Below, one piece after another: positions 1 to 24,224 of a stretch of DNA of 29,326 bases. The DNA is taken from IMG/VR virus record IMGVR_UViG_3300037189_005515, positions 1 to 29,326 of that record. One strand, given 5' to 3'. Under the pieces are notes generated by a model. That model did no database searches, was not told the origin of the DNA, and saw only the letters and a list, made by a program, of their open reading frames with translations. The first letter of the stretch is position 1. Each line of letters starts with the position of its first letter. Both the position numbers and the translations under genes were made by a program. The stretch is from a virus.

Positions 1-1256
1 TCTGGGAAGTCATTACGCTCTTCATTAATAAACCGGCCAAATAGTAGGTCGTACTTGATTGGATCAACCTCTGTGATTCCAAGGGCGTAGCAGACTAATG
101 ACCCAGCCGCTGATCCACGACCGGGACCAACAAGAATCCCGTTCTCCTTAGACCAATTAATCATATCTGATACGACTAAGAAGTAGGGGGCAAACTTCTT
201 CTTCCTGATTACTTCAAGTTCTGTATCCAGCCTTTCATCATAAACAGAATCATTAATGCCTCTTCTAACCAATCCCTCGCGGCACAACTCATACAATTTA
301 TCGTTGGCACTACGCTTAGAAACTGGAAGCAAATCTACATTCTGAACATAGTCATAATCACCAATTTGATCTACAACAGAAAGAGTATTCTCATAGATAT
401 CAGTGCGAGAAATTCCCTGAGCCTCAAGATGCTGCATTATTTCAGCGCGTGACTGGATGTAGACATCGATATCCTTGAAACTGATCGGACGATCAGGATA
501 TAGGTAGTCAAGTCTCTCAAAGATATCTTTCATACCGCGAGACTTTTCAAACTCTGCTTCCTTATTGACATTAGGTTTGGTAGATAGGATTAGCAAAGCC
601 TCTTCTACCGCACGCTGGTCAGCAGTGGCAAAATGACAGTCAGACGTAACAATAGGACCAACGTTATATTCATCTGCCAATGACAGCAGTCTCATATTCA
701 ATTCGACTGGGTTGTGTGGCTGAATCTCAACAAAGAAGTCTCTGTCAAAGCGGTTTTTAAACCATCGCATAAGAGCGGTGATACGCTCCTCATTCTCACG
801 TTCGATTGCCTTGGAAATAAGTCCATTCATGCAGCCGGAAAGAACAATAAGGCCATCACCATAGTCATCTAGTAGTTCAAGGTCGATGCGGGGCTTACGA
901 TAGAAGCCCTCTGTCCATGCAACCTCAGACATGTGATGAAGATTCTTAAGTCCCGCCTGATTCTTTGCTAGCAAAATAATATGATTAAATACCTGAGTAT
1001 TATCATCACGATTCTTAATATCACGACGGTCAAAACGATCAGTTTCAGAGATATAAGCCTCTACACCAAGAATCGGCTTCATGCCAAGTTCCTTAGCGGC
1101 ACGCTGCATATCACGGTGACTAGAAAGAGTCCCGTGATCAGTTACTGAAACAGCAGTTTGACCAAGTTCCTTGGCAGCAGAAAGCAATTCGTGCGGTGAG
1201 CAAAGGCCGTCCATCAGTGAATATTGTGAATGACAATGCAGATGCGCGAAGTCCAT
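1..1256 (-). CDS. dnaE: DNA polymerase III alpha subunit (DnaE-like), N-terminal part, cut by window edge
   Basis: This is the replicative DNA polymerase of the C family, probably copying the phage genome with the helicase, primase and SSB encoded just upstream. The reading frame is open to base 1 and gives 418 residues. The PHP domain comes first, with HLHCHSQYS at residues 5-13, TDHG at 39-42 and GVEAY at 64-68. Its metal-binding histidines look intact, so proofreading or pyrophosphatase activity is possible. The polymerase core begins with VGPGRGSAAGS at 376-386 and continues to RFINEERNDFP, the usual run-up to the catalytic PDxDxD motif. The window ends exactly there; the next partial codon starts GA, which fits Asp. 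ATG at 1256 is preceded by AAGGA. Identification of the family is firm; the palm, fingers and C-terminal domains are outside the window. Confidence 0.93.
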   Translation of the reverse strand, partial: MDFAHLHCHSQYSLMDGLCSPHELLSAAKELGQTAVSVTDHGTLSSHRDMQRAAKELGMKPILGVEAYISETDRFDRRDIKNRDDNTQVFNHIILLAKNQAGLKNLHHMSEVAWTEGFYRKPRIDLELLDDYGDGLIVLSGCMNGLISKAIERENEERITALMRWFKNRFDRDFFVEIQPHNPVELNMRLLSLADEYNVGPIVTSDCHFATADQRAVEEALLILSTKPNVNKEAEFEKSRGMKDIFERLDYLYPDRPISFKDIDVYIQSRAEIMQHLEAQGISRTDIYENTLSVVDQIGDYDYVQNVDLLPVSKRSANDKLYELCREGLVRRGINDSVYDERLDTELEVIRKKKFAPYFLVVSDMINWSKENGILVGPGRGSAAGSLVCYALGITEVDPIKYDLLFGRFINEERNDFP

Positions 1257-7652: not shown

Positions 7653-8117
7653 TTAAATATTTGCAGATTCTACGCCAATTGCTATTACGTTCACAACAAT
7701 GCTTCCATTATATTTTGTTGAACTTGGATTATATGCGTGAACTTTGCATCCATCTTTTGTTATGGCAGATACACAGGCAAACACATATCCACTAGATGGA
7801 GTAACTTCTGCGGTGGCAGTGACATGCGGGGCCTGCGAAAATACACCATTGAATGGTACATTAAAGGTTTGTAAAAGTCCAGTACCGTTAACCCTATTTG
7901 AATATCTAGTTGAATATATTCTTGTTTCTTCCGCCCCGTAAGTTGTAAGTGTGGTTGCACCAGTATGCATTGTGTACAAACCTTTTTTATTTGTGTTTAC
8001 TTGGTTTAAACCTAAATCAGTACAAAAATCATATAAGGTATTGATTGTTTCAGCCATATTAGTAATTAATGTTGCTGAAATTACACCATTATTGGCTGTA
8101 TTATTTACAGCAGCCAT
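7653..8117 (-). CDS. Tail-tip protein with lectin-like C-terminal domain
   Basis: The 154-residue product looks like a small receptor-binding or tip protein. Residues 1-45 are a helical N-terminus. Residues 85-152 form a beta-rich domain that aligns by eye with the last 80 residues of the 543-residue protein: both share F..xF...P.VT, a run of alternating hydrophobics, YN.SS and a final IA.G. This pattern is seen in H-type-lectin-like domains at phage fibre ends. The gene starts in a TAATG overlap with the coiled-coil gene. Binding to a host sugar is inferred. Confidence 0.6.
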   Translation of the reverse strand: MAAVNNTANNGVISATLITNMAETINTLYDFCTDLGLNQVNTNKKGLYTMHTGATTLTTYGAEETRIYSTRYSNRVNGTGLLQTFNVPFNGVFSQAPHVTATAEVTPSSGYVFACVSAITKDGCKVHAYNPSSTKYNGSIVVNVIAIGVESANI

Positions 8118-8347: not shown

Positions 8348-9979
8348 TTAACTGCCTGCCGCTATCCATGCAACGCCCACGCCGACACTGGCGATACTAC
8401 TACTACCAACATTATAAACATATAGGTTAAATCCAGAAGCGGTAGTTGATATTGCCCTTGGTACTAATGTTGCTGTACCACCGGGAGCAGTTGACAAACT
8501 AACTGTAACATAGGGTACTGAATTAAATGGCGTTGCAAATGTTACTTGTACAAATGCTCCAGCAGCAACGGCATATGAAGCAGTTACAGTAGTACTACCA
8601 CCTTGCACTGCTTTTGTTGGGACATCATTAAAATTAATTATTGTATTAGAAGTAGCAGAACCAAAATATATTTGGTTGTTCTGTCCTGAATCTACATCTA
8701 TAAAAAATCCTTTTTTAGTACCCGGTGCTGGCGACCAATTAGTATAAAATGATGTAGCATTTCCATTAAAATGAAACTCAGTAGCACTAATATAAAAATC
8801 ACTTTGTATTCCGCCACTAGACATCCCATACGTCCACGGTGTATTTACAGTATAAATACTTACGCCAGAAGTAGTTCCTCCACCGGATATATCTTCATAA
8901 TACGTTGAAAGATTAAAATTAGAAGTTTGATAGTTTACAAATGTTCCGCTACCCGGTGGTATTTCAACTGATTGAATATTAGTGCTTGGATAAAAATCTA
9001 CTCTTCCAGATGCTGATTGATAAGATAATGAGGATGTAGATATTAACCAATTACTTATTTGTCCAGTAACTGCTTTTAAAGAGCCTGTATTTGTAATACT
9101 AAATGGTGCATTTGCTGCTGTTGAATTTCCTGCCCAAAAAGAGTACAGTCCACTATTTGCTAATGCTACATAACTTGTACCAGTACCACTATACAATGAA
9201 GAGGCAGTTACTGTCCAGCCCGCAATTGAAGCACCGCCACTTGTAAATTTTACTGTATCAGATAATGTAAAATTACCAGCAGTATCTAAATAAAATGGAG
9301 TGTTTGCATTTGCAGAAGCACCAGTGCCACTATAAAGTTGTCCTAGGGGCGAAGATGCATTTGATTTTATAACTATAGGTGTAGTGTTTCCAACACTTAT
9401 TTGTTGATTAGCCTGAAGAGTTCCTGTTACTATCTTATCAGCACTAAGGTCAGAAATATAGGCATTTGCAAAATATGTTGTTGTCTGTGGCAGAACTCCA
9501 CTAGAGAACTCAGACTTATTACCACTTCTATCTACCGCCCTGATAAAGAAATACAATGATGTTAGAACATTAGTAGGAGCAACAATTGATGCGGTTCCAG
9601 ATACCGGAACAGTCAATGTCGCTTCACTATTTACACCATCTACCCTAGCATACCTCACATCACCCAGTTTTGTTGCTGAGGATGCTACGTTGACACTGGC
9701 AGCATATACCTCAAAGTACGCAGTATCAGTTTCAATCACTTGTGAGGCACTAGTATATCCATTTATTTTTACTCTTGTAGTTAAGGTATTTAAATAATCT
9801 GCGGAATTATTTGATACTAATACTAACGCTGCTGATGGGGTAGATGGAGCAGTTGTATCTGCTGTAGCCGTGAATGTAAACTTATTTGACCAATCAGAGA
9901 ATGACGCGCCATCCTTAGCGCGTATTTGAACATCATATGATTTACCGGGCACAAGACCCTTTATTTGAATGTTAGCCAT
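8348..9979 (-). CDS. Tail-tip/fibre protein beginning with half a fibronectin type III domain
   Basis: The 543-residue product begins in the middle of a fibronectin type III fold: residues 2-38 (IKGLVPGKSYDVQIRAKDG, then SDWS) are the strands E, F and G with no strands A to C. A second, complete-looking FN3 spans about 44-162 (ending RAVDRSGNKSEFSS). ADKIVTGTL at 180-188 is a hallmark seen in phage tip proteins. A beta-rich middle follows, and residues 455-543 form a lectin-like end similar to the 154-residue protein. It is probably the tail-tip fibre or receptor-binding protein. ATG at 9979 follows AGGAGA, 8 bases after the preceding gene. The missing half of the first FN3 appears to be at the end of the gene at 11159-11548. 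Confidence 0.75.
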   Translation of the reverse strand: MANIQIKGLVPGKSYDVQIRAKDGASFSDWSNKFTFTATADTTAPSTPSAALVLVSNNSADYLNTLTTRVKINGYTSASQVIETDTAYFEVYAASVNVASSATKLGDVRYARVDGVNSEATLTVPVSGTASIVAPTNVLTSLYFFIRAVDRSGNKSEFSSGVLPQTTTYFANAYISDLSADKIVTGTLQANQQISVGNTTPIVIKSNASSPLGQLYSGTGASANANTPFYLDTAGNFTLSDTVKFTSGGASIAGWTVTASSLYSGTGTSYVALANSGLYSFWAGNSTAANAPFSITNTGSLKAVTGQISNWLISTSSLSYQSASGRVDFYPSTNIQSVEIPPGSGTFVNYQTSNFNLSTYYEDISGGGTTSGVSIYTVNTPWTYGMSSGGIQSDFYISATEFHFNGNATSFYTNWSPAPGTKKGFFIDVDSGQNNQIYFGSATSNTIINFNDVPTKAVQGGSTTVTASYAVAAGAFVQVTFATPFNSVPYVTVSLSTAPGGTATLVPRAISTTASGFNLYVYNVGSSSIASVGVGVAWIAAGS

Positions 9980-9987
9980 TTATTCTC

Positions 9988-11157
9988 CTATGAATATAAG
10001 TATATCTCATATTCAATATCTACGGATTCCTGTGCTGCTTTTATTATTGGACTTGGAAGAACCGATCTTGAAACTAATCCATGATAAATATTAAAATTAT
10101 TAGAATGACTAAATTTCAAAGAATCAAAATAGAGAGCCACGGAACCTGACGGGCAAATATAGGATATTTCAAGTTTTGATAATATATCATTATATAGTGA
10201 ACCTTTAGATATTGTTCCTTCTAAAAAGTTAACGCCCGCAGATACACCAGCATTAGAAATTAAAGTTATAGCATTATCTGGACTAGAAGAAGTAATAGTT
10301 GAAGTATCTTGACCCTTTACAGTAATTGATGCTGTTCCTGTTGAATATACAAGGAGTTTAGCCGTGTCAAAATTATTGGAAAATCTTTGCGTATCAATCT
10401 CAAGTGACCCGGCTGGAGAACTTGCTGATCCAATTGCTATAGAAGAACTTGTTGATCCTAAAACTACTCTTTGTGAAGATGTTGAAACTGCTACATTTAA
10501 TGTTTTATTAGAAAGTCTTGGAGAATATAATGCATAGGTACTTGTTGAAGTACCGCCTGTCCATCCTAAATTGGATACATCTTCATCAAAATTCGTTAAT
10601 ATTTTATCCTCAAATAAATCTGGTGTTTGATTAATCGCATTTGTAAAAACTCCTAATTCATAAATTATGCAATCTATTCCTTCTGGAATAGTAGCCTTGA
10701 ATTTAACACTTTTAGGAGTTTTAAAATATCCTGTAGCACCAGACATTGATGCAGTATTAGGATGAGACATTGTTAGACTAGCACCAGATATTGAAACTAT
10801 AGATACAGTTGCAGATGAATTTATACCTGTTCCTGTCAATGACTGCCCAACGCTTAATCCTGCTGAAGAGCCTACAACAACTTGTGTAGAACCAGCAGAA
10901 CCACTAATTGTAGTAGATGTAATAATACTATTTATTGGACTTCTAGTTGTTATTGCAAATCTTGATATTTCATAATTTAATTTATAATCATTAATTGTAG
11001 CAGCAGTATTATATGCACCTACAGCAATAGATGAGGCCCAATCTTCAATGATGCCAGCCATATATTGATGAATTACATCTTTACCATTTGAAGTAATAAG
11101 ATTATTACTTTCTGAAATCATTTCATCATTTTTATAAACTCTATAAATACCATGCAT
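9988..11157 (-). CDS. Minor tail protein lying between the halves of a split FN3
   Basis: I chose ATG at 11157, with GGTGG upstream, over the GTG at 11169. The 389-residue product begins with HGIYRVYKNDEMISESNNLI and LAG-type residues (YMAGIIEDWASSIAVG), a pattern of actinophage-type minor tail proteins. About residues 85-145 hold a repetitive Ser/Thr/Gly module (VVVGSSAGLSVGQSLTGTGI) that appears inserted between two parts of the N-terminal domain, since PKSVKFKATIPEGIDCIIYE resumes afterwards. The C-terminal 190 residues look like a carbohydrate-binding beta-sandwich. It overlaps the preceding stop closely and ends 8 bases before the next gene, so it belongs to the tip operon. Specific role unknown. 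Confidence 0.65.
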   Translation of the reverse strand: MHGIYRVYKNDEMISESNNLITSNGKDVIHQYMAGIIEDWASSIAVGAYNTAATINDYKLNYEISRFAITTRSPINSIITSTTISGSAGSTQVVVGSSAGLSVGQSLTGTGINSSATVSIVSISGASLTMSHPNTASMSGATGYFKTPKSVKFKATIPEGIDCIIYELGVFTNAINQTPDLFEDKILTNFDEDVSNLGWTGGTSTSTYALYSPRLSNKTLNVAVSTSSQRVVLGSTSSSIAIGSASSPAGSLEIDTQRFSNNFDTAKLLVYSTGTASITVKGQDTSTITSSSPDNAITLISNAGVSAGVNFLEGTISKGSLYNDILSKLEISYICPSGSVALYFDSLKFSHSNNFNIYHGLVSRSVLPSPIIKAAQESVDIEYEIYLYS

Positions 11158-11158
11158 A

Positions 11159-11548
11159 TTAACCACCACTCAATCTAAACTCATACTCTGCCGCGCCTAA
11201 AACATCATTACAAGAAATGGTTGCTGTAACCGTTGTTCCACCATCAGCAGAAAGTTCAATATTTTGTGACACAAGGGCTAGATTATCTGGGGTTGCAATA
11301 TCCTTTGGTGTAAATGGTTGTATCTGAATATTTGGAAGTTCTGGTGGCGTCCACTCATATGGTTCTTGTGTAATTAAATTTGGACTATCTTGAACATCAT
11401 TATTAACTTCGGCAGATAATAATCCATATAAAGTTTCTGCTACGCTTTCAGTATCACTAATTTGATCTAATTGTTGAACTGCTTGACGTGAACCCACCTG
11501 TTCAGCAATTAAATTTTTAATTATAGATACGATATCAGAGTCAGACAT
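11159..11548 (-). CDS. Tail protein ending in an FN3 N-terminal half
   Basis: The 129-residue product has a helical N-terminus (residues 1-50), a Pro-rich linker (PYEWTPPELPNIQIQPFTP) and then residues 86-129, which read as strands A to C of a fibronectin type III domain: TPDNLALVS, ADGGTTVTATIS and AAEYEFRLS, before stopping abruptly after SGG. The remaining strands are absent here but match the start of the 543-residue protein two genes on. It lacks any ribosome binding site; a strong promoter places the RNA start on the A of its ATG, so it may be leaderless. A role in the tail tip is inferred. Confidence 0.66.
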   Translation of the reverse strand: MSDSDIVSIIKNLIAEQVGSRQAVQQLDQISDTESVAETLYGLLSAEVNNDVQDSPNLITQEPYEWTPPELPNIQIQPFTPKDIATPDNLALVSQNIELSADGGTTVTATISCNDVLGAAEYEFRLSGG

Positions 11549-11554
11549 ATTATA

Positions 11555-11582
11555 ATTATACCATTACGACTAAATATGTAAA
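11555..11582 (-). promoter_or_regulatory. Strong promoter, TTTACA-16-TGG-TATAAT, for a possible leaderless mRNA
   Basis: The minus strand has TTTACA (5/6), 16 bases, then TATAAT preceded by TGG. The expected start base, about 7 after the -10, is the A of ATG at 11548. This is the best promoter in the window and serves the tip genes. Confidence 0.6.
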
Positions 11583-14500
11583 CTTCTCAATTTGAGATTA
11601 GTTGCCATGCCGCCCTCTCCAAAGGAGTGTTCTACTGATGAAAGTACAAATGATGCTGATATATTTTTTAATGAATATGTCATATATACATAATCTCCCG
11701 GTTCAAGGCCGGGGTTGCCAAATGTTTCTATAGCATAAAGTTGATTCATTGCATATAAGTTTTTAGATATATCTGAATTAATTGTTTCAGCAACATTTTG
11801 ACTGGTACACCAAGGAGCATTAATTTCAATATTTTGTAGCCCCGGCATGGTACTTACTTTTGTAGTAAATTTTTGATCAGCCTGTACTACTATGGCTTTG
11901 CCAGCAATTCCTAATGAATTTGCCTCACCACTTTCAATTACTGGAAATAGTACTGTATTAGACCTATTTCTTACTGCAATTTTTGTTCTAAATGGAGTTC
12001 CGATTAATGTTGATATTTGAAAATCATCTGGGTTAGCATTATAAAATCCCACTAGACCGCTTGGCTCTGTAATTTCATAATGATAATATGGAATATCACC
12101 ATTAAATTTAACGTCATATATAGATATTCCTCTAAGTAATGGTTTTGTTTTAAATGAAAATGGTCTTTGAACGGCTGCGGGAGTACCATATGGAGAAAGC
12201 AAGTAATCTAAACTATTTTTAGGTTCTAAGGTATTAAACCCATCCTCATCTCCACCAATATGCTGACCATTACAGACAGCCTCTAGAGAATTAATATAAA
12301 TAGTAGTATCTGCAACATTATTTCTACTAAATAATCCAAATGTTCTACCGGCCCTAACAAGTCCCGGCGCTACAATTTTATCTGTAAACTTGTTATTTGC
12401 AAGATTTTTAAATTGAACAATTTTTCCATTAACTTTAATTGTTATAGTTTTTGTTTTTATATCTACATAAAGATCAATAACATAATTTGTTGAAGGTTTT
12501 TTCTGTGGTGGTGTTAGCCAAACAACGTGTCCTCTACTTTTAATAATTTTTTTAGTCTTTGGGTCTCTTTTTGGAACACCTTTTGTATTTATATATGTAT
12601 CCTCAATCATATAATCTTTAATCATATATGCAACTTTATTCGAATTTGCAATTGCACCATATCTAATATGACCGGGATTTTTAGCGCCTTTCTTTGTATT
12701 AAATTCTATAAACATTCCTGTAGCAAAATTTGCTGCAACTCCATATGTAAAACTTACAGCACCACCAGAAGAAGTTGGATCAGCACCAATAAATATTCCA
12801 ACTGAACCTAAATTATCCTTAGGTTTTATTGAAACTTGATAATGATTATATAATTCACTATCTTTTTGGTAGAAACCTAAATAATTAATTCCATTTTTAG
12901 GAGAAACTATAAGTGGCACCCCACTAGAATTTGTATCAACACTTTGTCCCAAAGTCATCGAATGTCCGACGCCTTTAAATACACTAGAATCAGAAAAAGT
13001 ATTTTTATATTGATGTGCAGCAGCATTAGTACCGAAAAGTCCGCGTTGAACATTCATAAGGTATCCAGTTGGATAATATGATATATGAGATACAGATTTA
13101 GATGCAACTCCCGCACATGAAATATTATAGTTAGAAACAGCAGTATCTTTAAATGTGAATGTAGCAGATGTTGTTGCAGTTAATGTTACAAATTTATTAA
13201 ACGTATCTGGCACAGAAATATAAATTGTATCTCCTACTGCATAAGTATTATATGCAGTTATTGTAACAGTTCCTACCGAAGCATTTCCTGAAGCAGCAGT
13301 TATTGCTACAGCATTATCTGAACCTATGCGATTTGCTACCTTATTCAATAAATCTTCATTAGAGGTAATAGTTTCATTAACAGAATATCCTGCTAAATAT
13401 GGAGTAAATGCATATTCTTTACCACCCCAGTATATAATTTCATTTTCAATGATCCCATATCCACTAAAATTATAAATTTTTCTTTGAAGTGTATTAGCAG
13501 ATGCTCCAGCATTCCATAATGCTGTTCCTGCTTTTATTTTATTATCATCAATAGCAATTGGATATTCTATATACGCACAGTCAAGGGCGCGTTTATCATT
13601 TGGTTTCCATGGCGTTTGAGAATAATTTGACAACACTTTTTGACCACCATCAACATTTTCATATGCATTTTTAACAGTATTTGCTGCTGAATATGAAAGA
13701 TTTCTATATGTGGTAGTAATTGTTCCAATTGGTTCTTTAAAATCTTGAGTTATTGTTGAAATATTAGGAATAAAAGAATTAGATGCCGTATCAGTTAATT
13801 GAAAATATCCAGATAGTCCATATGAAGAATTTGAATATGTTGTTGACACTGATTCTCTTAATAAATCTTTGAACTGTAAAATACCATTATTGTCAAAGGA
13901 GAATGAAATTTGCCAACTTAAAAATATTTCGGAGAGCGCAGCCCATAATGTTTTTTCATTACTAGAAAAGAAAATATTATTAGTACCATATCTTTTTATT
14001 GATATACCATCAGATACTTGCTGCAATGATGTACGATCATAGTCTGAAAACCCGCCAGCCTGAAGTAAACACTCAACTATTTTTTTCCAGTCACCTATTT
14101 GATGTGGAGTTTCTGATGACATTAATAATAAATCTGGTGCATTCATTGTTTGTAACTGTTTACCATAATCTGAAAGTGGAATTGAAACTGTTTCAATCCC
14201 ATCCATTGACCAATTATTAGCATACATTGTTGCAAGTTTAACTTGTGCGCTGGAAGAAGGACTCACAGTATCATAAATATTTGAATATATTGTAAACTTT
14301 ACTTCTGGCATAATAAGCCCTGAAAGTGGACTATTACTATTATTATTAAATACTTGAAATACTGAACCGCTATTTCCAATAACATATCTAGGTAAGTTTT
14401 CTAGCACAATGTTTCCATCATTTGTGCTAGACATACCAACTGGTACAGGTAAGTTTCCTTCATCTATACTTAATTTAACATTTCCACTTACCATAAAATT

Positions 14501-15724
14501 ACTTAAATCTAACTTAAGCCTTGGAGATATCTCTATGACCCTAACTCTTAAATATTTATCTGTATCATCACTATAGATTGCCCCACTTAAATTAAATAGT
14601 ACACGAATACCTTCTATATTTTTATAGTTAGAAGTAGAAAGTGTTCCACTCACTGAATCAATTTGTGGATATGTTATTGATCCAGTTGTCCATGCAGATG
14701 CAGACCCATTCCACCTTAAAATAAATGAACCATTTTGAATAACTGATGCTGTACTTATTGTTGCAGCAGTATTCCAAGTTCCTGATTCTTTTACATATAC
14801 CGTAACATTTGTGATTTTACCATCATACATGTTTGGCATATCAATATTTTGAGTTTTAATATATATTTCATTAGTTTTTACTGATGTATTATATACAGAG
14901 AATATATTAAATGATGCTGTTGTAAGACTATCTCCAGACCGTGGAGTTATAAAATATTTAAATTCATTAAATGGACTAAGTGCAGTGGGAATTAAGTTAA
15001 TATCGTTCTTAGGACCATCTATAAATCCATCCATAGTAATATAGTATTGAGAAATAATATTATACGGTGAAGTTGTACTCAAAAGATCATTCTCAAGTAA
15101 TTGATCCCCCGGCCTATGTGGAGTAAATATTTCAGAAAGTCTATCTACCTGTAATTCAAGAATCTCGTCAGAAGAAACTTTAGCCACACTAAAATTCTTA
15201 AAAGCAACACTTGCAGTTCCTGAAGTAATCGTTGCACATGCTTTTATTGATATATCAATCCTATCAAATTTTGTGCTACTTTCTGAATTACCAGTAAATA
15301 TTATTTCAAATTTATTATAAACATTATCAACAAGTTTTACTGTTTTAACATCTATATATTGTGACTGAGCATTTCCTGCATAGTATGGAGTTATTTTAAT
15401 TAAATAATCTGTATAAATATCATCAAACGATGAGGGGAAGGCTGTTATTTTTGCATCAAATGTAACTCTAACAGCATTTTCTAAGTTTAATGTTGAAAGA
15501 CCAGTGATTGATGATGCTGAAGTGAAAGTATTAGAATTTACACTTATTGTTGCTGATGACGTTGAAGTTACATAATAATTATTCGCAGCAGAATTACCAG
15601 AATAATATCCATAAATATCCGGCTGAGTATATAAATGATGATTCCACTGAGCATGAATAGTTTGATCAGTATCTAGGAATTGCTTAGTTTTAACAAGATC
15701 AAGTGCTGTATCTTTAACCGTCAT
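11570..15724 (-). CDS. Large baseplate hub / tail-associated protein with carbohydrate-binding insert
   Basis: The 1384-residue protein is probably the tail hub (gp27/Tal-like). Residues 50-190 look like a carbohydrate-binding beta-sandwich. Residues 530-700 (DWKKIVECLLQAGGF onwards) form the hub-like core; a typical hub end, PGDYVYMTYSLKN then FVLSSVEHSF and ATNLKLRSL, closes the protein at 1330-1384. Between these, residues 803-875 are a Thr/Ser-rich module and 950-1155 resemble a concanavalin/LamG-type sandwich (KPKDNLGSVGIFIGAD to TTIYINSLEAVCNG). YPTGYLMNVQRGLFGT at 885-900 links them. It could hold the tail to cell-wall sugars while the fibres search. The gene overlaps its neighbour by ATGA at the start. 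No peptidase motif is visible. Confidence 0.72.
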   Translation of the reverse strand: MTVKDTALDLVKTKQFLDTDQTIHAQWNHHLYTQPDIYGYYSGNSAANNYYVTSTSSATISVNSNTFTSASSITGLSTLNLENAVRVTFDAKITAFPSSFDDIYTDYLIKITPYYAGNAQSQYIDVKTVKLVDNVYNKFEIIFTGNSESSTKFDRIDISIKACATITSGTASVAFKNFSVAKVSSDEILELQVDRLSEIFTPHRPGDQLLENDLLSTTSPYNIISQYYITMDGFIDGPKNDINLIPTALSPFNEFKYFITPRSGDSLTTASFNIFSVYNTSVKTNEIYIKTQNIDMPNMYDGKITNVTVYVKESGTWNTAATISTASVIQNGSFILRWNGSASAWTTGSITYPQIDSVSGTLSTSNYKNIEGIRVLFNLSGAIYSDDTDKYLRVRVIEISPRLKLDLSNFMVSGNVKLSIDEGNLPVPVGMSSTNDGNIVLENLPRYVIGNSGSVFQVFNNNSNSPLSGLIMPEVKFTIYSNIYDTVSPSSSAQVKLATMYANNWSMDGIETVSIPLSDYGKQLQTMNAPDLLLMSSETPHQIGDWKKIVECLLQAGGFSDYDRTSLQQVSDGISIKRYGTNNIFFSSNEKTLWAALSEIFLSWQISFSFDNNGILQFKDLLRESVSTTYSNSSYGLSGYFQLTDTASNSFIPNISTITQDFKEPIGTITTTYRNLSYSAANTVKNAYENVDGGQKVLSNYSQTPWKPNDKRALDCAYIEYPIAIDDNKIKAGTALWNAGASANTLQRKIYNFSGYGIIENEIIYWGGKEYAFTPYLAGYSVNETITSNEDLLNKVANRIGSDNAVAITAASGNASVGTVTITAYNTYAVGDTIYISVPDTFNKFVTLTATTSATFTFKDTAVSNYNISCAGVASKSVSHISYYPTGYLMNVQRGLFGTNAAAHQYKNTFSDSSVFKGVGHSMTLGQSVDTNSSGVPLIVSPKNGINYLGFYQKDSELYNHYQVSIKPKDNLGSVGIFIGADPTSSGGAVSFTYGVAANFATGMFIEFNTKKGAKNPGHIRYGAIANSNKVAYMIKDYMIEDTYINTKGVPKRDPKTKKIIKSRGHVVWLTPPQKKPSTNYVIDLYVDIKTKTITIKVNGKIVQFKNLANNKFTDKIVAPGLVRAGRTFGLFSRNNVADTTIYINSLEAVCNGQHIGGDEDGFNTLEPKNSLDYLLSPYGTPAAVQRPFSFKTKPLLRGISIYDVKFNGDIPYYHYEITEPSGLVGFYNANPDDFQISTLIGTPFRTKIAVRNRSNTVLFPVIESGEANSLGIAGKAIVVQADQKFTTKVSTMPGLQNIEINAPWCTSQNVAETINSDISKNLYAMNQLYAIETFGNPGLEPGDYVYMTYSLKNISASFVLSSVEHSFGEGGMATNLKLRSLHI

Positions 15725-16263
15725 TATACCTCTTTAAGTGTCATAGACACATCCCATAAATCATACCTACCTGTGACTACTGTACCGCCGCCATAATATC
15801 TTTTATTAACCGTAATAGAAAATGAATCTATATAGAAGTTTACAGATGTACTATTTGTGGGTGATGCTGTTGGCATTGTAGTTACGGAACCTCCTGCTGC
15901 TGGATTAATAACTAAACCGCCAGAAGATGCTGTTCCTGATCCTGCTAAATCAGCAAATATATACCCTGTAAGGGTAGTATTATAATTATTATTATAGAAT
16001 AATTGCAAGTCTTTTGCCCCTGCCCCATAATCTACCGTAATAGATGATGATGAAGGTAAATTTGACCATGATAACGATAGGCTTCTTTTACCGGCAACAA
16101 CAAATTTTCTAGTATCTCCATTAGCCATCTGTACGGATTTTTCATACCTATCAAAGCCTAACTGGAATGGGGCGCGGGAATGATCAGAAAGCATAAAATA
16201 ATTACTTGCTGTTGAAGGATAGTATCCTTTCAATATTATAGCCGGGGCCAATTGAAATGCCAT
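15724..16263 (-). CDS. Distal tail-like minor tail protein
   Basis: The 179-residue product follows the tape measure gene directly, the usual place for the distal tail protein (Dit), and precedes the hub. Residues 15-70 (FMLSDHSRAPFQ, then DTRKFVVAGKRSLSLSW) form a beta-rich start like a tail-tube or Dit belt domain; residues 130-179 are again beta-rich and end in SMTLKEV. A Gly/Ala/Ser-rich central loop is present. It starts in a TAATG overlap with the tape measure gene stop. Identification rests mainly on position and size, so it may be another minor tail protein. Confidence 0.55.
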   Translation of the reverse strand: MAFQLAPAIILKGYYPSTASNYFMLSDHSRAPFQLGFDRYEKSVQMANGDTRKFVVAGKRSLSLSWSNLPSSSSITVDYGAGAKDLQLFYNNNYNTTLTGYIFADLAGSGTASSGGLVINPAAGGSVTTMPTASPTNSTSVNFYIDSFSITVNKRYYGGGTVVTGRYDLWDVSMTLKEV

Positions 16264-19200
16264 TACATCACCCTATTAGTTCTAATCTGTCTCGTCATTG
16301 TTGCATTAATCTTGTTAATAACAATATCAGCAATTTGTTCAGGAGATTTATTTGCACCATTAATATGGATATGATTAGTAATATCTCCCATACCCATTTT
16401 ACCATCTGCAATTGATTCTAGCAAGGGAGTCAACTTATCAGTTAATTCTCTAGTTACTACTGTTTCACCAGTTTGTAGTAAAGCAGCAACTTCACCAGTT
16501 TTAGAATACCCAACCTTAGTTCCATCATGATATTTTGGAAGAACCATTCCACCCATTCCATAGGCACTAGTTATATTTCTTGCCATTGGAGAGAAATCTG
16601 AGGTTGCTTTTAATGTTCCTGTAGCAGCAGAAAAAGGAATTTGTCCAGCGGCTCTGGGTGCCCTAGGCGCAGGATTTGCAGTAGTTCCTGCACGACTAGG
16701 TGTTGGTGGTTGTGTTGGTCTTGGTCGTGGGGCAGGTGCTGGAGTAGGAGTTGAGGTTACTGTATTTGCAAGCCTTCGTGCCTGCAAAAATCCCCAGTCT
16801 CCCACACCAGTACCATTTGGCCCATAAATATTTGAAATATTTACTCCACGGCCTCCGCTTGACTGTAATATTCTTCCTCCACCATAATAAAATGCAACGT
16901 GATTTGGATCATGAACGCCGCGACTATCTTGAGGACCATTAGCAGTTCTCCAGAATACTAAATCTCCCGGTTTCATTTTTGAACTACGATAATCTTTTGT
17001 TACAAGACTACCAAATTGCATCTGAGTTGGAGAAAATGATTCTAAATCCATTCCTATTTCTTTTAGAACAGCATGAGTAAAATTAGAACATCCAAATCCT
17101 TTTTTAAAGGCTTCATTAAAAGTAAAAGCCAAATCGCTATACCCACCCTGTGAATCTTTATGTGCATAGTCAATTTGACCAGCATAATTACTAGCCCACT
17201 TCATTAATGCTGGAAAATCACGGTTGCCACCTCTATATTTTACATATGAATGCCATGGACCCGGTGGATAGGATGATGAAGAACCAGAACCAGTAGTAGA
17301 ACTACCACCATTAGAGCCACCACTACTAGCACCACTGGAACCAAGACGGGACATTAATAATTTAGCAATTGATGGATATGCTCCAGACGCAGGATGTTTA
17401 CCCATATTAGACCAAGATGTTCTGTTCCCATTATCATCAACAATCCAACTTGGATGAGATTTTATTAATCCAGCAACATCAACAATATGCATATTTGAAT
17501 GTCTTGAATTTACTGCTGCAATAGTTGAATTATATTTTTGAGCCTTATTCCAAGCATTTGTATACCAATATACATCTCTGTCTGTTCCGGCAAGGCTCAT
17601 AACTTTTTCTATTTCAGCATCAAACATCGACGCATTGAACCCGGCCTCAAAGTGTCCTGTGGGATAGGGGCCGGGACCATTAGTTCCAAGAGATACTGCT
17701 ATTTTATTAGGCCAATTCTTTATAGAAGAACCCCATTTAGAAATAGCCTGAGTAGGAGTTATACCACCCTGATAAGCCTTTCTAACAGGTCTTCCTGCAT
17801 AAGTATCTGTAAAGTATGGGTCGGTATCTCTCATTATAGAGTCACCCATCATTACTAATCCACCATTAGCATATTTCTTAGCATTAACAGCATCAAAGAA
17901 GCCGGTTCCATAATGACCAACCGCATCTGCTTGAATAACATATTCACCATTTGAAAGCATTGCAGGAATACGATCATCTTTAGGACCGCCCGGTCCAGAA
18001 ATTGGGCCTCCAGTTGCCCTTCCAGCGGGTGGAGTTGATCCAACAAGGCTTCTTACTTGATTAAATACTTCTTGATGAGCCTCTACTTGTTTTATAGAGC
18101 CATAGAAAGAAAACATAGCGCCACTGATTGCCTGATCAGATGTTAATGGTGTTTTACTATTTGTTAATCTATTTAAAGCATCTTGGACAATTATTGTAAG
18201 TCCAGTCTCGCTAATAATACCTTTAAGTGATTCAACAAGTGCGTTAAATTTTGCTGGGTCAAATGATCCCTTACTGGTCTTAGCCCAAAGATCGGCAATA
18301 TATTGATTTGCTTTATCTGCCGGTACACCCATAGCAACAAGTTGATCACGCAATTTAGCAATTAGACTATCTTTTAATGCTGATTCGGGAGTAGAGAAAT
18401 ATACAATTTTTAATTTATCCTGAATTTGCTGTAGAACTGTTTGTGCCTTGTCACCAGCAGCAGTTTGTTGATCTTCTTGCGCTTTTGCTGATTTTGCTGC
18501 TGCATCAGCCGATTGCTTAGCAGCATCAGATAACTGCTTAGCCCGATCTTCAGCCTTTCTTCTGGCCTCAAGTGCTTTAACTTCAGCATCTCGTACTCTT
18601 TCAATACGCTTCTTTTCTGCCTCAGCCGCAGTAATTTTCTTATCTTCAACAGCAGTAATTCTTTTTTCTTTATCATCAGCGGCTTTTTTATCTTGTTCAT
18701 TAGCCAATTGTTGACGTAATAAATCAGCACCAGCAAGATCACCAGAAGCCAAGGCTTCATTAATTTGTTTCTTAAGACCCATTTCAGTCAATAGGAAGTC
18801 ATTATTAGCCTGTTGTTCTTCTCTAAGTTTACGACGAGCGTCACGTTCTTTATTGATTTTATCAATAATTTTATCTTGTGCATCGGCAAGTTTATCATAT
18901 TTAGATTTTATTGCTTCGTCTTCTGCCTTACGCTTATCTTCTTGTGCGAACTGTGCTTGAAGTTCAGCAACTTTATCTGGCTGTGAAGAACCAGAATCTG
19001 TTGAACTACTAGAACTTGTTTTAGAATTACCTTTAATGTCTTCTGCAACTTTACTTGCAATATCAGATAGAGCAGCCTTATCTTGATATGTTCTAACAAT
19101 AAAGTCCATATATACTGGGTCTCTTGCAGCCTTTCTAAATGTATCAATATCTGTTATTACTCCACGCATCATCAAGGCTGACGCTCTAGAAATATTAGCA

Positions 19201-22200
19201 AATGATACATCTCCTTCTCTAGCAAGACCGTTCATTGCATCTGCAAGTTCTGGCGATACATTTTCACGAATATTTGAAACTAATGAATTGAATTGACCAG
19301 TCATCATCTGGCCCTGTTCCTTAGTCTGATTACTATATAATGCGTAATCGCCAAATACGCTTTTCATTGCATTGGCAAAATTTTCAATTGGCATAGTTTG
19401 ATATGCAGAAAGCATTGATTCTGTTAAATGATCATAGGATTCTGCCGTAATAGTTACAGCCTTAGATATATCAATATTATTTTGTACTAGTACGCCTTTG
19501 CTGGATGTGGCAGTAAGAAATTCTTTTGTTGATCGACCTTTAACATTATTAGCCGCAGCATTTGCCGCAGCAACTGCTGTTTGTAACTCAAGGGCGCGTT
19601 GTTGAAAAGCATCAAGTGGGTCTTTAAAAGATTTTTCATCTATTTTTAGATTGAATCCAACTGCAAGGTCTTTTCTTCCAGTTTTTAACAAAATGGCGGC
19701 TATATCTTCCTTGGCATTTTTTTCACCAAATCCGGCAATTATATCTGACTGGTATCTATCAATTAATAACTTAACTGCGGCTTTCGGATCAGCATTCTTT
19801 ATTTGTTCTAAGAAATTTTTCGTTCCTTCATCAGCCGCATTGCCATATGCCTCTGCAAGTTTATTTACACTATCAGTAGCCTCTTTTGTATTTTCTACAA
19901 GGCCAGCAATTGGATTCTGCAATTCATATACGCTTACTCCAAAATGCTCCGCTGCGACTGAACTTATTCTAAATGACTCTGTTGTAGCATCTCTAAATGC
20001 TACCCAATCACTATGAAGTTTATATAAAAATGCTCCTAGTCCTGCTAGTGCAGCAACTGCTGCTGTAGCCAATATTGCTGCTGTTGATAATCCAGATAGT
20101 AGAGGTGCCATAGACAATGCCATACCACCGTACATCATTGCATTATTACCCATAGACATACCAGCCATGCTAAGACCCATACCAGCCATACCAGCACCCA
20201 TTTGTACCCCTGTACCTTTCATGAACATGGCTGCTCTCATAGCAGCGCCCTTGAGTCCAAGCATTGCTCCAGATGTTTCAATTGCCGCGCCAGACGCGGC
20301 ATCAAGTGCTATGATAAGTCTTCCTCTAGAATCTAATAATTTAATTATTTGACTTCCATCGGCAAGATATTTTATGGATACATTTTCCATAGCCATTAAT
20401 TGTTGATTTGTTGCAGATTGAATCAATGTTCCTCTGATAGCGGCTTGTTCAGCCTCAGTCATATTTGCTGCACCCTTCATCTGGGCAGTTTTTGCTGCAA
20501 CTAAATCTGCTGCAATTGATAGTTCTGTAGCAGATATTTGTTGCTCTAAAGCAACACTTAACATAGAAGTAATTCCAGTTAATCTTGCTACTTCTGCTGC
20601 TGCTTTTTCAACAGCAACGGTGTCTACAGTTGTGGCACTTTCTAGTCTTGTTAATTTTGCCTGAGCAGAATTAAGTTTTGCTGTATATGAAGTATATGAT
20701 GCACTCAGGGCATCTCTTTTCATTTCTTCAACTTGAGAGCCGTTAATTCTAAGTGCAGTTTCTACATCGATTGCTGATATTAACATACCTTGAGAATCAA
20801 TAACTTGTATGAGCCTATTTCCAGCAGCATCAGTCAACGATTTGTATCTATTTCCTGAAGCCAGTTCCTCTTGAGTCATCATGGTACGAACAGCATTTTG
20901 TTCTTCTAAGGTTAATCCTTGTCTACGCAATGCAGTCATAACTCTTTTACGAGTAAGACTTTCTTCTCTAAGGGCTTGCTCATATCCTCCGAGAAGGGAT
21001 TCAACTTCATCTATTTTAAGATTTAATTCTTTAACATTTGTTGAAGCCTTAATCATACTTGCAGCATAATCGCTGATTGAACCTTCTAAAACTTTATTTT
21101 TAGAGTCTAAAGTTATTAATGTTTCTTTTCCATCTATAAGTGCAACAATGTATGCAGTCTTTCCATTAATAACGGCATTGCTTATTTCTACTTCTTTTCC
21201 AGTATATTCTTTAGTAGCAAGCACCCTCTGTTGTATAGACTCTATTTCCTGTTCTTTAGAAACAACATATCCAGAGTAAAATTTATTATTTGCTCCAGCG
21301 GCGGCAGCAGATTCCAACTTCAAACTAGCAAGAAGTTTTTTCTTTTCAGCAACAAGCAGTTTAGATATTGCTGCGTCATCAGTGACTGTTGGCCCAGTCA
21401 TAGTTGCTATTTGCGATGCATAATACTGGCCTCTAGTATCACTGAGCATTTTTTTCAATGGCTGTATTGTTCTACCCGGTCCTGCACTTCTAGTTCCTGC
21501 TGCCTGTGCTGACATTGTTGCCATCATTATTTGTCTTTGCACATCATCAGTTTCTGCCAAAAGTTTTATCATGAGAAGGTCTATTTCTTTTTCATACTTA
21601 TCCTTCCCGCCCAAAACTTGTTCTATGATTGGTTGTAACTGAGCGACGGCAGATGCTCTAGTTTTTGTACTTCTAGACCCAAGTCTGTCAACAATTTTAT
21701 TTAATTCTATTGCATCTTTTTCACTAAGAGTTTTGGCATGTTCAGCCAAAGCATTCATATTTACAAGGAATCTTACATGGTTATTTCTAAATGTTTCAAC
21801 GCTTGGATATAATTGGGCCATTATTTGACCATTTTGTGCTGCCAGCCTTGCTTGATTTGGGTCCATTCCAACTAGGGCCGCTTGCTCAAGGAAGATGGTA
21901 GACCTTTGTGTGACCGCCTGCGCTTCCGACATTCTAAGTGTCACCATGTTATGATATTGATTCAATGATGTTTGAAGTGCGGCTGCTTGACCAGTTGTGA
22001 ATATACCAGTTGTCGGAAAAAGTGTTGCGCCTCCCGGTCCCTTACCTATTAGGGCGGTTGCCTTTTTTAATTCAGCATTTTGCTCAAATGCCGGTTTTAA
22101 TAATGATGCATTTGGATATGCGTGTGTCCATTGGGCTGTTCCAGTTAGAGCAAGATTTCTACCGCTTTTTTGTGTTGCAAGGCTTGCAATAATTGCAGCA

Positions 22201-24224
22201 TTTGATGCTGCCATAGCGGCTGGACTAACATATGCACCAGTTCCACCCCACGGAGCAGCGGGAGAGGTTGGGCCTGCTCCTGCACCTCCCATACCGGCTG
22301 GTGGTCGTGCTACTCCAGATAAAGTGCCGGTTTTTGAAAGAGATATATATTCTTGTAATTCAAGATTCAATTTTGAGAGTGCCATTTTTACAATATCAAT
22401 TGATCCAGCCTCTTTAATCATTTTTTCACTAAATAGTTCAGCAGCATTTGCTGCCGCTAATGATTCAGCAGTGGCTACTTTTCCAAAACCTCTAAATCCA
22501 TTAGCAAGATTCTTAACAGTTACTAGACCTTTACCTAAGAATCCAAAGAAGTTTCCTAACAATCCGGCTGTCATTACTAAAGGACCAACTATTGCAGTTC
22601 CTAATCCTAAATATTTGACAAGGTTCAGTAGTTGTGGATTTTTATTTACAAAATTTGTTATTTTTGAAAAAAATTCCATTAAAGTTGTAAATATTTCTGT
22701 GAATTTTTCTCCAATTGGCACTAGCGACATGCGTAGTGATTCTATTGCTCTTTGATATCTACCACTTGCAGATTCAGTTACTTGTTTCATATTGGATGCT
22801 GCAAGTGCAGCAAGTTGTCCTGAACTAGCACCCATAAGTTCAAATACTCTAGCAGTTTGCGTACCCTTTGAATTTATATTGTCAAGTAGGGCAGCAATTC
22901 TTGCAAACTGGAACTTACCAAAAATTTGTTCAATTGCTCTTGCCCTAGATAATTTATCAAGTTTATTTAACTGTTCTGCTAGAAGTTTAAATGTTGCTAC
23001 TGGAGTACCGCCAGTTGCATTAACTAGTCCAACTAGATCAATTCCAAGTTCTTTTATTGATTTTTTAGTTTCTTTTGTGGGATTAATAAGTGAAGCCATA
23101 GATGATTTAATAGCATTAGCGGCTTCAGATGCAGGGATACCAGCCTCAGCCATTGCAGCCATCATAACTGCCAAATCTTTAACTGAGCCACCAAGTTCAT
23201 CAACAACTGGGGCGGCCCTAGGAATTGAGTCTGTAAGGTCTTGAAGACTTAGGCTTGACTGGTTTGATACACCGATCAGGAAGTCCATAGCCTGTGTTAA
23301 ATCCTGAGTACTCATTTTAAAAACATTTTGTAATGAAATGGTTGTTTTTACAGAATCTTGTTGACTAACTTCTCCAAGAATAGCAATCCTACTTGCTTCT
23401 TTTGTTGCCGCAAGTAATTTAGGCCCTTCTAAACCAGTAGCAGCAAGGTCGGCGGCGAATGCCGCAGTTTTATCAATAGACTGTCCCCATGCGCTTGCAA
23501 GTTCTGAAGAAAGTCCAGTAACATCTGATCTTATTTTTTTAAGCGTAGAATCAGAAGCAGGAACAAGACCCGTTCCATATACCTTTTGCATTCTAACAAG
23601 TTCTTTGTCAAATTGAAGAAATGTCTCAGAGGCTTGTTTCCCAAACATCATAATTGGTAGAGTCAAGCCTACACTTAGTTGGCGACCGGCCCATTGAGTA
23701 TTCTTACCCCATTTAATTAATTCATCTGCACCATTTCTAAGAGAAAGATTGTATAACTCCTGGTGTTTTTTGGCAATTGCAGTAGCATTAGCAATAGCAT
23801 TTATTTTTCTTGGAGTATCTACATAAACTCTACCTTGAGTAAATGGATCAGTTCTCATAATAGATTGGCTTAATCTAACCTGTTGCTCTGCTAGTTGCCT
23901 TAGAGAACCTTGAGTTGAGTTAGACCCACGCTTGACAACATCAAAATACTGTCCAAGTTTAAGGGTTTGATTCTGTAGAGATTGACCAAATTTTTCTGTT
24001 ACACCTTGAGTTTGAACAACACTTATATGAAATGCACCAGATGATTGAAATATTTTGTCATATTGAGCGGTCATTTGTTTCATACGAGACATTTGATCAT
24101 TACTCATACCAACACCCATAGAAGAGTTATTGATTTGTTCAACGCTTCTACGAACTTGGTCTAACTGTGTCTTTAATTGTGAAAAGTTTCCAGTTGCAAC
24201 AAAATTAAGTTCTACGCGACTCAT
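16263..24224 (-). CDS. Tape measure protein with SGNH esterase and NlpC/P60 peptidase domains
   Basis: This 2653-residue protein sets tail length. Residues 190-450 match TP901-type tape measure proteins. Hydrophobic stretches lie near 530-568 and 1343-1401, and a long charged coiled coil near 1748-1928. The C-terminal part holds two enzyme-like domains. An SGNH hydrolase resembling OatA-type esterases shows MGDSIM with S2129, LGTNG with N2182 and H2277, but no Asp three residues before that His. An NlpC/P60 domain shows GCSNF with C2379, NHVAFYYG with H2442 and Q2454 as the third residue. Both sit between two GG-P-I/IPA-LSNGEYV type tape measure motifs (2069-2125 and 2556-2590). They could open peptidoglycan at DNA entry. 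The start follows the chaperone stop by 6 bases with no clear ribosome binding site, so coupling is likely. Confidence 0.9.
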   Translation of the reverse strand: MSRVELNFVATGNFSQLKTQLDQVRRSVEQINNSSMGVGMSNDQMSRMKQMTAQYDKIFQSSGAFHISVVQTQGVTEKFGQSLQNQTLKLGQYFDVVKRGSNSTQGSLRQLAEQQVRLSQSIMRTDPFTQGRVYVDTPRKINAIANATAIAKKHQELYNLSLRNGADELIKWGKNTQWAGRQLSVGLTLPIMMFGKQASETFLQFDKELVRMQKVYGTGLVPASDSTLKKIRSDVTGLSSELASAWGQSIDKTAAFAADLAATGLEGPKLLAATKEASRIAILGEVSQQDSVKTTISLQNVFKMSTQDLTQAMDFLIGVSNQSSLSLQDLTDSIPRAAPVVDELGGSVKDLAVMMAAMAEAGIPASEAANAIKSSMASLINPTKETKKSIKELGIDLVGLVNATGGTPVATFKLLAEQLNKLDKLSRARAIEQIFGKFQFARIAALLDNINSKGTQTARVFELMGASSGQLAALAASNMKQVTESASGRYQRAIESLRMSLVPIGEKFTEIFTTLMEFFSKITNFVNKNPQLLNLVKYLGLGTAIVGPLVMTAGLLGNFFGFLGKGLVTVKNLANGFRGFGKVATAESLAAANAAELFSEKMIKEAGSIDIVKMALSKLNLELQEYISLSKTGTLSGVARPPAGMGGAGAGPTSPAAPWGGTGAYVSPAAMAASNAAIIASLATQKSGRNLALTGTAQWTHAYPNASLLKPAFEQNAELKKATALIGKGPGGATLFPTTGIFTTGQAAALQTSLNQYHNMVTLRMSEAQAVTQRSTIFLEQAALVGMDPNQARLAAQNGQIMAQLYPSVETFRNNHVRFLVNMNALAEHAKTLSEKDAIELNKIVDRLGSRSTKTRASAVAQLQPIIEQVLGGKDKYEKEIDLLMIKLLAETDDVQRQIMMATMSAQAAGTRSAGPGRTIQPLKKMLSDTRGQYYASQIATMTGPTVTDDAAISKLLVAEKKKLLASLKLESAAAAGANNKFYSGYVVSKEQEIESIQQRVLATKEYTGKEVEISNAVINGKTAYIVALIDGKETLITLDSKNKVLEGSISDYAASMIKASTNVKELNLKIDEVESLLGGYEQALREESLTRKRVMTALRRQGLTLEEQNAVRTMMTQEELASGNRYKSLTDAAGNRLIQVIDSQGMLISAIDVETALRINGSQVEEMKRDALSASYTSYTAKLNSAQAKLTRLESATTVDTVAVEKAAAEVARLTGITSMLSVALEQQISATELSIAADLVAAKTAQMKGAANMTEAEQAAIRGTLIQSATNQQLMAMENVSIKYLADGSQIIKLLDSRGRLIIALDAASGAAIETSGAMLGLKGAAMRAAMFMKGTGVQMGAGMAGMGLSMAGMSMGNNAMMYGGMALSMAPLLSGLSTAAILATAAVAALAGLGAFLYKLHSDWVAFRDATTESFRISSVAAEHFGVSVYELQNPIAGLVENTKEATDSVNKLAEAYGNAADEGTKNFLEQIKNADPKAAVKLLIDRYQSDIIAGFGEKNAKEDIAAILLKTGRKDLAVGFNLKIDEKSFKDPLDAFQQRALELQTAVAAANAAANNVKGRSTKEFLTATSSKGVLVQNNIDISKAVTITAESYDHLTESMLSAYQTMPIENFANAMKSVFGDYALYSNQTKEQGQMMTGQFNSLVSNIRENVSPELADAMNGLAREGDVSFANISRASALMMRGVITDIDTFRKAARDPVYMDFIVRTYQDKAALSDIASKVAEDIKGNSKTSSSSSTDSGSSQPDKVAELQAQFAQEDKRKAEDEAIKSKYDKLADAQDKIIDKINKERDARRKLREEQQANNDFLLTEMGLKKQINEALASGDLAGADLLRQQLANEQDKKAADDKEKRITAVEDKKITAAEAEKKRIERVRDAEVKALEARRKAEDRAKQLSDAAKQSADAAAKSAKAQEDQQTAAGDKAQTVLQQIQDKLKIVYFSTPESALKDSLIAKLRDQLVAMGVPADKANQYIADLWAKTSKGSFDPAKFNALVESLKGIISETGLTIIVQDALNRLTNSKTPLTSDQAISGAMFSFYGSIKQVEAHQEVFNQVRSLVGSTPPAGRATGGPISGPGGPKDDRIPAMLSNGEYVIQADAVGHYGTGFFDAVNAKKYANGGLVMMGDSIMRDTDPYFTDTYAGRPVRKAYQGGITPTQAISKWGSSIKNWPNKIAVSLGTNGPGPYPTGHFEAGFNASMFDAEIEKVMSLAGTDRDVYWYTNAWNKAQKYNSTIAAVNSRHSNMHIVDVAGLIKSHPSWIVDDNGNRTSWSNMGKHPASGAYPSIAKLLMSRLGSSGASSGGSNGGSSTTGSGSSSSYPPGPWHSYVKYRGGNRDFPALMKWASNYAGQIDYAHKDSQGGYSDLAFTFNEAFKKGFGCSNFTHAVLKEIGMDLESFSPTQMQFGSLVTKDYRSSKMKPGDLVFWRTANGPQDSRGVHDPNHVAFYYGGGRILQSSGGRGVNISNIYGPNGTGVGDWGFLQARRLANTVTSTPTPAPAPRPRPTQPPTPSRAGTTANPAPRAPRAAGQIPFSAATGTLKATSDFSPMARNITSAYGMGGMVLPKYHDGTKVGYSKTGEVAALLQTGETVVTRELTDKLTPLLESIADGKMGMGDITNHIHINGANKSPEQIADIVINKINATMTRQIRTNRVM

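Follow-up and report, generated by a model that had tools for sequence, protein, structure and literature searches.

The window analysed here comprises positions 1 to 29,326 of the IMG/VR virus record IMGVR_UViG_3300037189_005515. At 8,348 to 11,548, it was found that three genes follow one another on the minus strand. The first is a small gene (11159..11548) for a putative adaptor protein of 129 residues, whose residues ~84-129 constitute the first half of a fibronectin type III (FN3) domain (strands A, B, and C). This half is encoded by the last 45 codons, which together with the stop codon occupy 11159..11296, and the match of the HMM smC ends one residue before the stop. The last is a large gene (8348..9979) for a fibre or minor tail protein of 543 residues, and its first part (9857..9979) encodes the second half of the domain (strands E, F, and G), as seen from Pfam fn3, the HMM lgN, and the modelled strands. 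Between them lies a complete tail-protein gene (9988..11169), whose product belongs to the PHROG 9983 family (7.6e-21) and has 393 residues from a GTG at 11169 or 389 residues from an ATG at 11157. With the GTG start, the middle gene overlaps the small gene by 11 bases. Directly upstream of the small gene, on the same strand, is a Tal-like tail-hub gene (11570..15724; PHROG 10359 minor tail protein, 4.6e-36), which was used as the anchor for comparing loci. The original prediction placed a 389-residue gene between genes of 129 and 543 residues that share one FN3 domain; its coordinates are correct, and the reading held, with the same cut and the same middle-gene family recurring in relatives. 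Neither direct nor inverted repeats were found at the borders of the middle gene, in agreement with the lack of a target-site repeat noted there.

The large protein starts partway into the domain, since the fn3 profile is covered from position 51 only. Residues 4-36 match profile positions 51-83 of 84 with 26.6 bits, above the gathering cut-off of 25, while the HMM lgN matches from residue 1. The protein also shows the profile of strands E-F-G with the L-x-PG-x-x-Y motif. Thus, it opens at the FN3 E-strand as had been predicted. A mis-annotated start was ruled out by an in-frame TAA immediately before the ATG, and an AGGAG ribosome site precedes this ATG. After the second FN3 half (residues 1-40), the protein continues with a second FN3-like domain, a fibre region, and an H-type lectin-like end (Pfam H_lectin, residues 477-540). 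Both this C-terminus (8348-8550) and a separate 154-residue protein (7653-8117) resemble H-type lectin domains, the latter weakly, and the two are possibly paralogous binding modules. The large proteins of the window (8348-9100) and of its closest relative, locus L003 (L003:3600-4445), are nearly identical to about residue 300 and diverge strongly after it. The divergent ends would fit swapped receptor-binding ends.

For the small protein, Pfam fn3 gives no match to the first half alone, and joining both halves did not raise the score above that of the second half. PDB profile matches to FN3 chains begin mostly in the second half. Among PHROG families, the small protein had only a weak match (0.011), and its C-terminus weakly matches the C-terminal end of PHROG 11696, a family without an assigned function. 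The assignment of this half to strands A-B-C, as originally proposed, is therefore based on its conservation in dozens of relatives and on composite structure models instead of Pfam. About ten residues are absent between the halves at the place of strand D, also as proposed. The last 44 residues of the small protein are more conserved than its remainder in 9/9 pairs. Between the window and L003, the first half has 10 synonymous and 7 non-synonymous codon changes, and the second half 12 and 3. Could the half-domains be an evolutionary relic of an ancient gene interruption, no longer forming an FN3? A gap that includes strand D might suggest so, but the better conservation of the halves, these synonymous and non-synonymous counts, and the fixed ends over very distant phages all speak against a relic, which I consider very improbable. 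The suggestion that each protein has lost the domain is contradicted, as both halves are kept.

Is this cut common in other phages? All three genes, with their ends unchanged, are present in L003 (62-87% identity). When the middle and hub proteins were used as tblastn queries, matches were obtained in Streptomyces phages (Stanwilliamsviridae) and Rhodococcus phages. In Faust, Comrade, Muntaha, Tomas, Coruscant, Braelyn, Trina, and Francesca, the hub gene is followed by a small "hypothetical protein", a tail protein, and a long minor tail protein. Their small proteins end with motifs such as ATEYDVRMTKA-stop or VEYEIRITQ-stop, and the long minor tail protein starts with MTRILLRDLEPGRLYHIQARATNG. 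Environmental phages have the split too, in dozens of cases. Scanning viral contigs with the hub as anchor yielded 73 loci, and profiles for both halves and for the middle gene were run on all loci. The order small-middle-large was observed in 39/39 non-redundant loci matched confidently by all three profiles; among these, the distance from the end of the first half to the stop is 0-2 residues in 34/39, and the second half begins at most nine residues from the start in 38/39. Since the profiles were built from members of the loci on which they were run, these counts show consistency and not independent discovery. In 22 further split loci, the middle gene is present while the halves are too divergent for one profile, and several that were inspected show the same cut. 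In split loci, the middle gene always lies between the halves; 130 phage records carry it. Neighbouring genes of the locus usually overlap by 4 bases in the relatives. No relative was found in bacterial genome contigs. The ends of both halves recur among phages of 20-35% protein identity, and a chance resemblance was ruled out by the dozens of relatives with the same ends.

Some lineages have longer chains. L107, L108, L110, and their relatives have a complete extra FN3 appended to the small protein after the first half (L107:10940-11641, L108:10499-11224, and L110:10844-11572), while in L113 and L100 the second half sits behind another domain and a linker. Even in these longer chains, the absent half is not supplied in cis. 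L076 (9192-12009) has three tandem small-protein paralogues followed by one middle and one large gene; each paralogue carries the end of the FN3 half with strand C, and their C-terminal parts differ. In L131, L141, and L145, the Tal hub protein itself is divided into two genes.

In the window, the small and large genes lie in the same frame, 1569 bases apart, which would be in favour of a single chain made across the middle gene by splicing or by ribosome bypassing. However, the frames differ in most relatives, the borders have no repeats, and the middle gene, conserved and overlapping, is a tail gene and not an intron; it is extremely improbable that a single chain arises in this way. An intron, intein, or bypass element that would join the coding parts into one product was rejected on these grounds.

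The shared frame of the small and large genes in the window and five other loci was used for modelling. A read-through translation was folded with AlphaFold as one chain, with a shallow six-row alignment of these loci, stops read as glycine, and the out-of-frame filler joining the halves, both of which are present letter for letter. The model of the window has 583 residues, 394 of them filler (pLDDT 20-31, against 49-73 for the halves). Strands were predicted at residues 91-99, 105-114, and 121-127 (A, B, and C) and at composite residues 524-532, 537-546, and 557-560 (E, F, and G). In VIA-align, the model matched 4lsd_B (Z 10.6, rmsd 2.5, 91 aligned of 94, range 83..563), and 4yfe_A gave Z 10.1 and rmsd 1.9 over 82 aligned residues. 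The ranges in this model run from residue 79-85 to 561-573, and the top 50 VIA-align rows are all FN3 or FN3-derived except one chitinase row (5gzt_B) whose fold was unchecked. A replicate with L077/Trina, with 265 filler residues and halves at pLDDT 58-78, matched 7u7n_C (Z 11.1, rmsd 2.0, 92 aligned, range 67..420). Foldseek alone found no match below E 0.1 for the composite models. Where strand D would be expected, the L077 model has an additional strand made of filler residues 114-122; the real composite may thus be without D or obtain it from another source. In two lineages, the composite models align over both halves with FN3 domains, the fold of which is a seven-stranded sandwich, at moderate pLDDT and with strand D missing or derived from filler. 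The models suggest that the halves are fold-compatible with one complete FN3 sandwich in both lineages, as seen on one chain and not as separate chains.

These results point to an old and maintained joint, in which a composite FN3 is probably assembled in trans between the small adaptor and the fibre protein. The C-terminus of the small protein would give strands A-B-C and the N-terminus of the large fibre protein strands E-F-G; in the assembled tail, the two separate chains would pair, and their halves would complete each other into one beta-sandwich. The composite domain would be located in the virion between the hub and the fibre, tethering the fibre to the adaptor near the Tal hub with no covalent link. 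Folding together as a split domain, which was one of the fates originally considered for the halves, is now the best explanation. Alternatively, the halves may not meet, and each may find its completion elsewhere, for instance in an edge strand of the middle protein, in the Tal hub, or in an adjacent copy of the same protein. The absence of strand D would fit such a partner, and a conserved beta strand (VDIEYEIYL-type) forms the end of the middle protein, right before the large gene. Moreover, strand donation is known between other tail proteins: in DT57C, strands of one protein complete the sheet of the other in the LtfA-LtfC pair to attach the fibre (PMC10713586). On the other hand, the cut point matches one FN3 exactly, the modelled sandwich forms without a third protein, and both halves vanish together in a clade of fused relatives described below. 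Completion by other partners is therefore judged unlikely.

In the original prediction, the simplest reading was that a tail gene had been inserted into what was ancestrally one gene, and homologues with one chain and loci without the 389-residue gene were to be sought. A scan using candidates from the first locus set did find single-chain loci. The N-terminus of these fused proteins has the small-protein motif KRxT..I...DPR, being the best non-member matches of that profile, and is followed directly by the next FN3 of the large protein. The middle gene was found in 0/16 of the fused records (23-92 kb), while it was detected in 4/4 split controls. However, none of the fused forms holds the FN3 in question. 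The refuting condition of the original prediction, halves that are always separate with no fused form, does not apply, since there are fused forms and these are without the domain. The FN3 that comes first in these proteins matches the second one of the large protein (2.7e-7 for L126 and 1.6e-6 for L124), with no match to the composite FN3 or to either half, and the profile comparison between the composite FN3 and FN3 no. 2 of the large protein revealed a shared edge only. Thus, the idea that the fused relatives have a rejoined FN3 was ruled out.

A tree of the Tal hub proteins with 78 tips (17 fused and 61 split loci) was used to assess which state is older. All 17 fused tips fall into a single clade (SH 0.81) nested in a well-supported group of split loci (1.0). 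The polarity of this tree comes from branch-length rooting, which involves rate assumptions and no outgroup; the best root lies elsewhere (CV 0.080), while a root on the fused stem has CV 0.433 and ranks 114 of 153 branches. Since the fused clade is nested, the fused-stem root is poor, and the split FN3 is absent from the fused proteins, the split appears from these sequence comparisons to be older within the sampled range, and fusion by deletion appears derived. One deletion of the first half, the middle gene, and the second half would yield the fused form. The existence of single-chain relatives without the middle gene would at first favour an insertion within this phage group, but they form a nested clade, are without the FN3 that was split, and are explained by that one deletion. 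An insertion within the group is thus quite unlikely, although one may have preceded the sampled radiation. The fused clade lost both halves and the middle gene together. Because it was lost with the joint, the middle protein probably acts at or near the joint.

FN3 links in phage tails are already known; new here is a link cut inside the domain. In phage T5, a string of FN3 domains from the hub to the central fibre is shared by BHPpb3 (two domains) and pb4 (three), and the hub-fibre joint moves when infection is triggered (PMC10038345). The domain layout proposed here resembles that of T5 in that an FN3 chain between hub and fibre would be divided over two proteins. The gene placement is also of the T5 type, with the genes lying directly after the hub gene in the order Tal-small-middle-large and the FN3 at the hub-fibre boundary. 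However, the T5 break falls between complete FN3 domains, whereas here it falls inside one domain, with a further gene between the two proteins. In lambda, FNIII-1 and FNIII-2 of gpJ carry the fibre below the hub, and the tail domains that are spread over more than one gene are not the same in lambda and T5 (PMC10721106). While gpJ forms a single covalent chain whose FN3 domains are complete, there are two chains here and one FN3 is cut. In DT57C, the donation amounts to one or two added edge strands, compared with half a domain here. According to PMC11666773, which cites Dutta 2005, an FN3 engineered with a cut in the CD loop (4-45 + 46-98) reassembles from two peptides, in vitro with a stability below that of the intact form. 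This split FN3 or split monobody is cut in the loop after strand C, as here; it is man-made and keeps strand D, whereas the natural version is mostly without D and lies in a virus tail over two genes. The PHROG 11696 and PHROG 9983 entries make no mention of a split domain or a partnership.

No natural split FN3 was found in the literature searched. The split FN3 locus is real and conserved and, in that literature, undescribed. FN3 is usually treated as indivisible, with break points regarded as annotation noise. In this case, the break is a feature that very distant phages maintain, and it falls at the loop that protein engineers picked for split FN3. If assembly in trans is true, it would assign a role to an unnamed small protein encoded beside the tail genes in about 130 sequenced phages, account for the fixed three-gene order, and reveal a way of joining and swapping tail parts. 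The claim is directly testable in cultured Streptomyces phages. A broader version, rather doubtful at present, would be that small adaptors, each with its own head, can be exchanged for one another and dock into the same fibre via the half-domain (compare the three tandem small paralogues of L076), that the middle protein is a chaperone or clamp, and that this is general in actinobacterial phage tails.

Elsewhere in the window, the tape measure protein (16263-24224) has an NlpC/P60 domain (4.4e-11) preceded by an SGNH-like stretch (MMGDSIMRDT).
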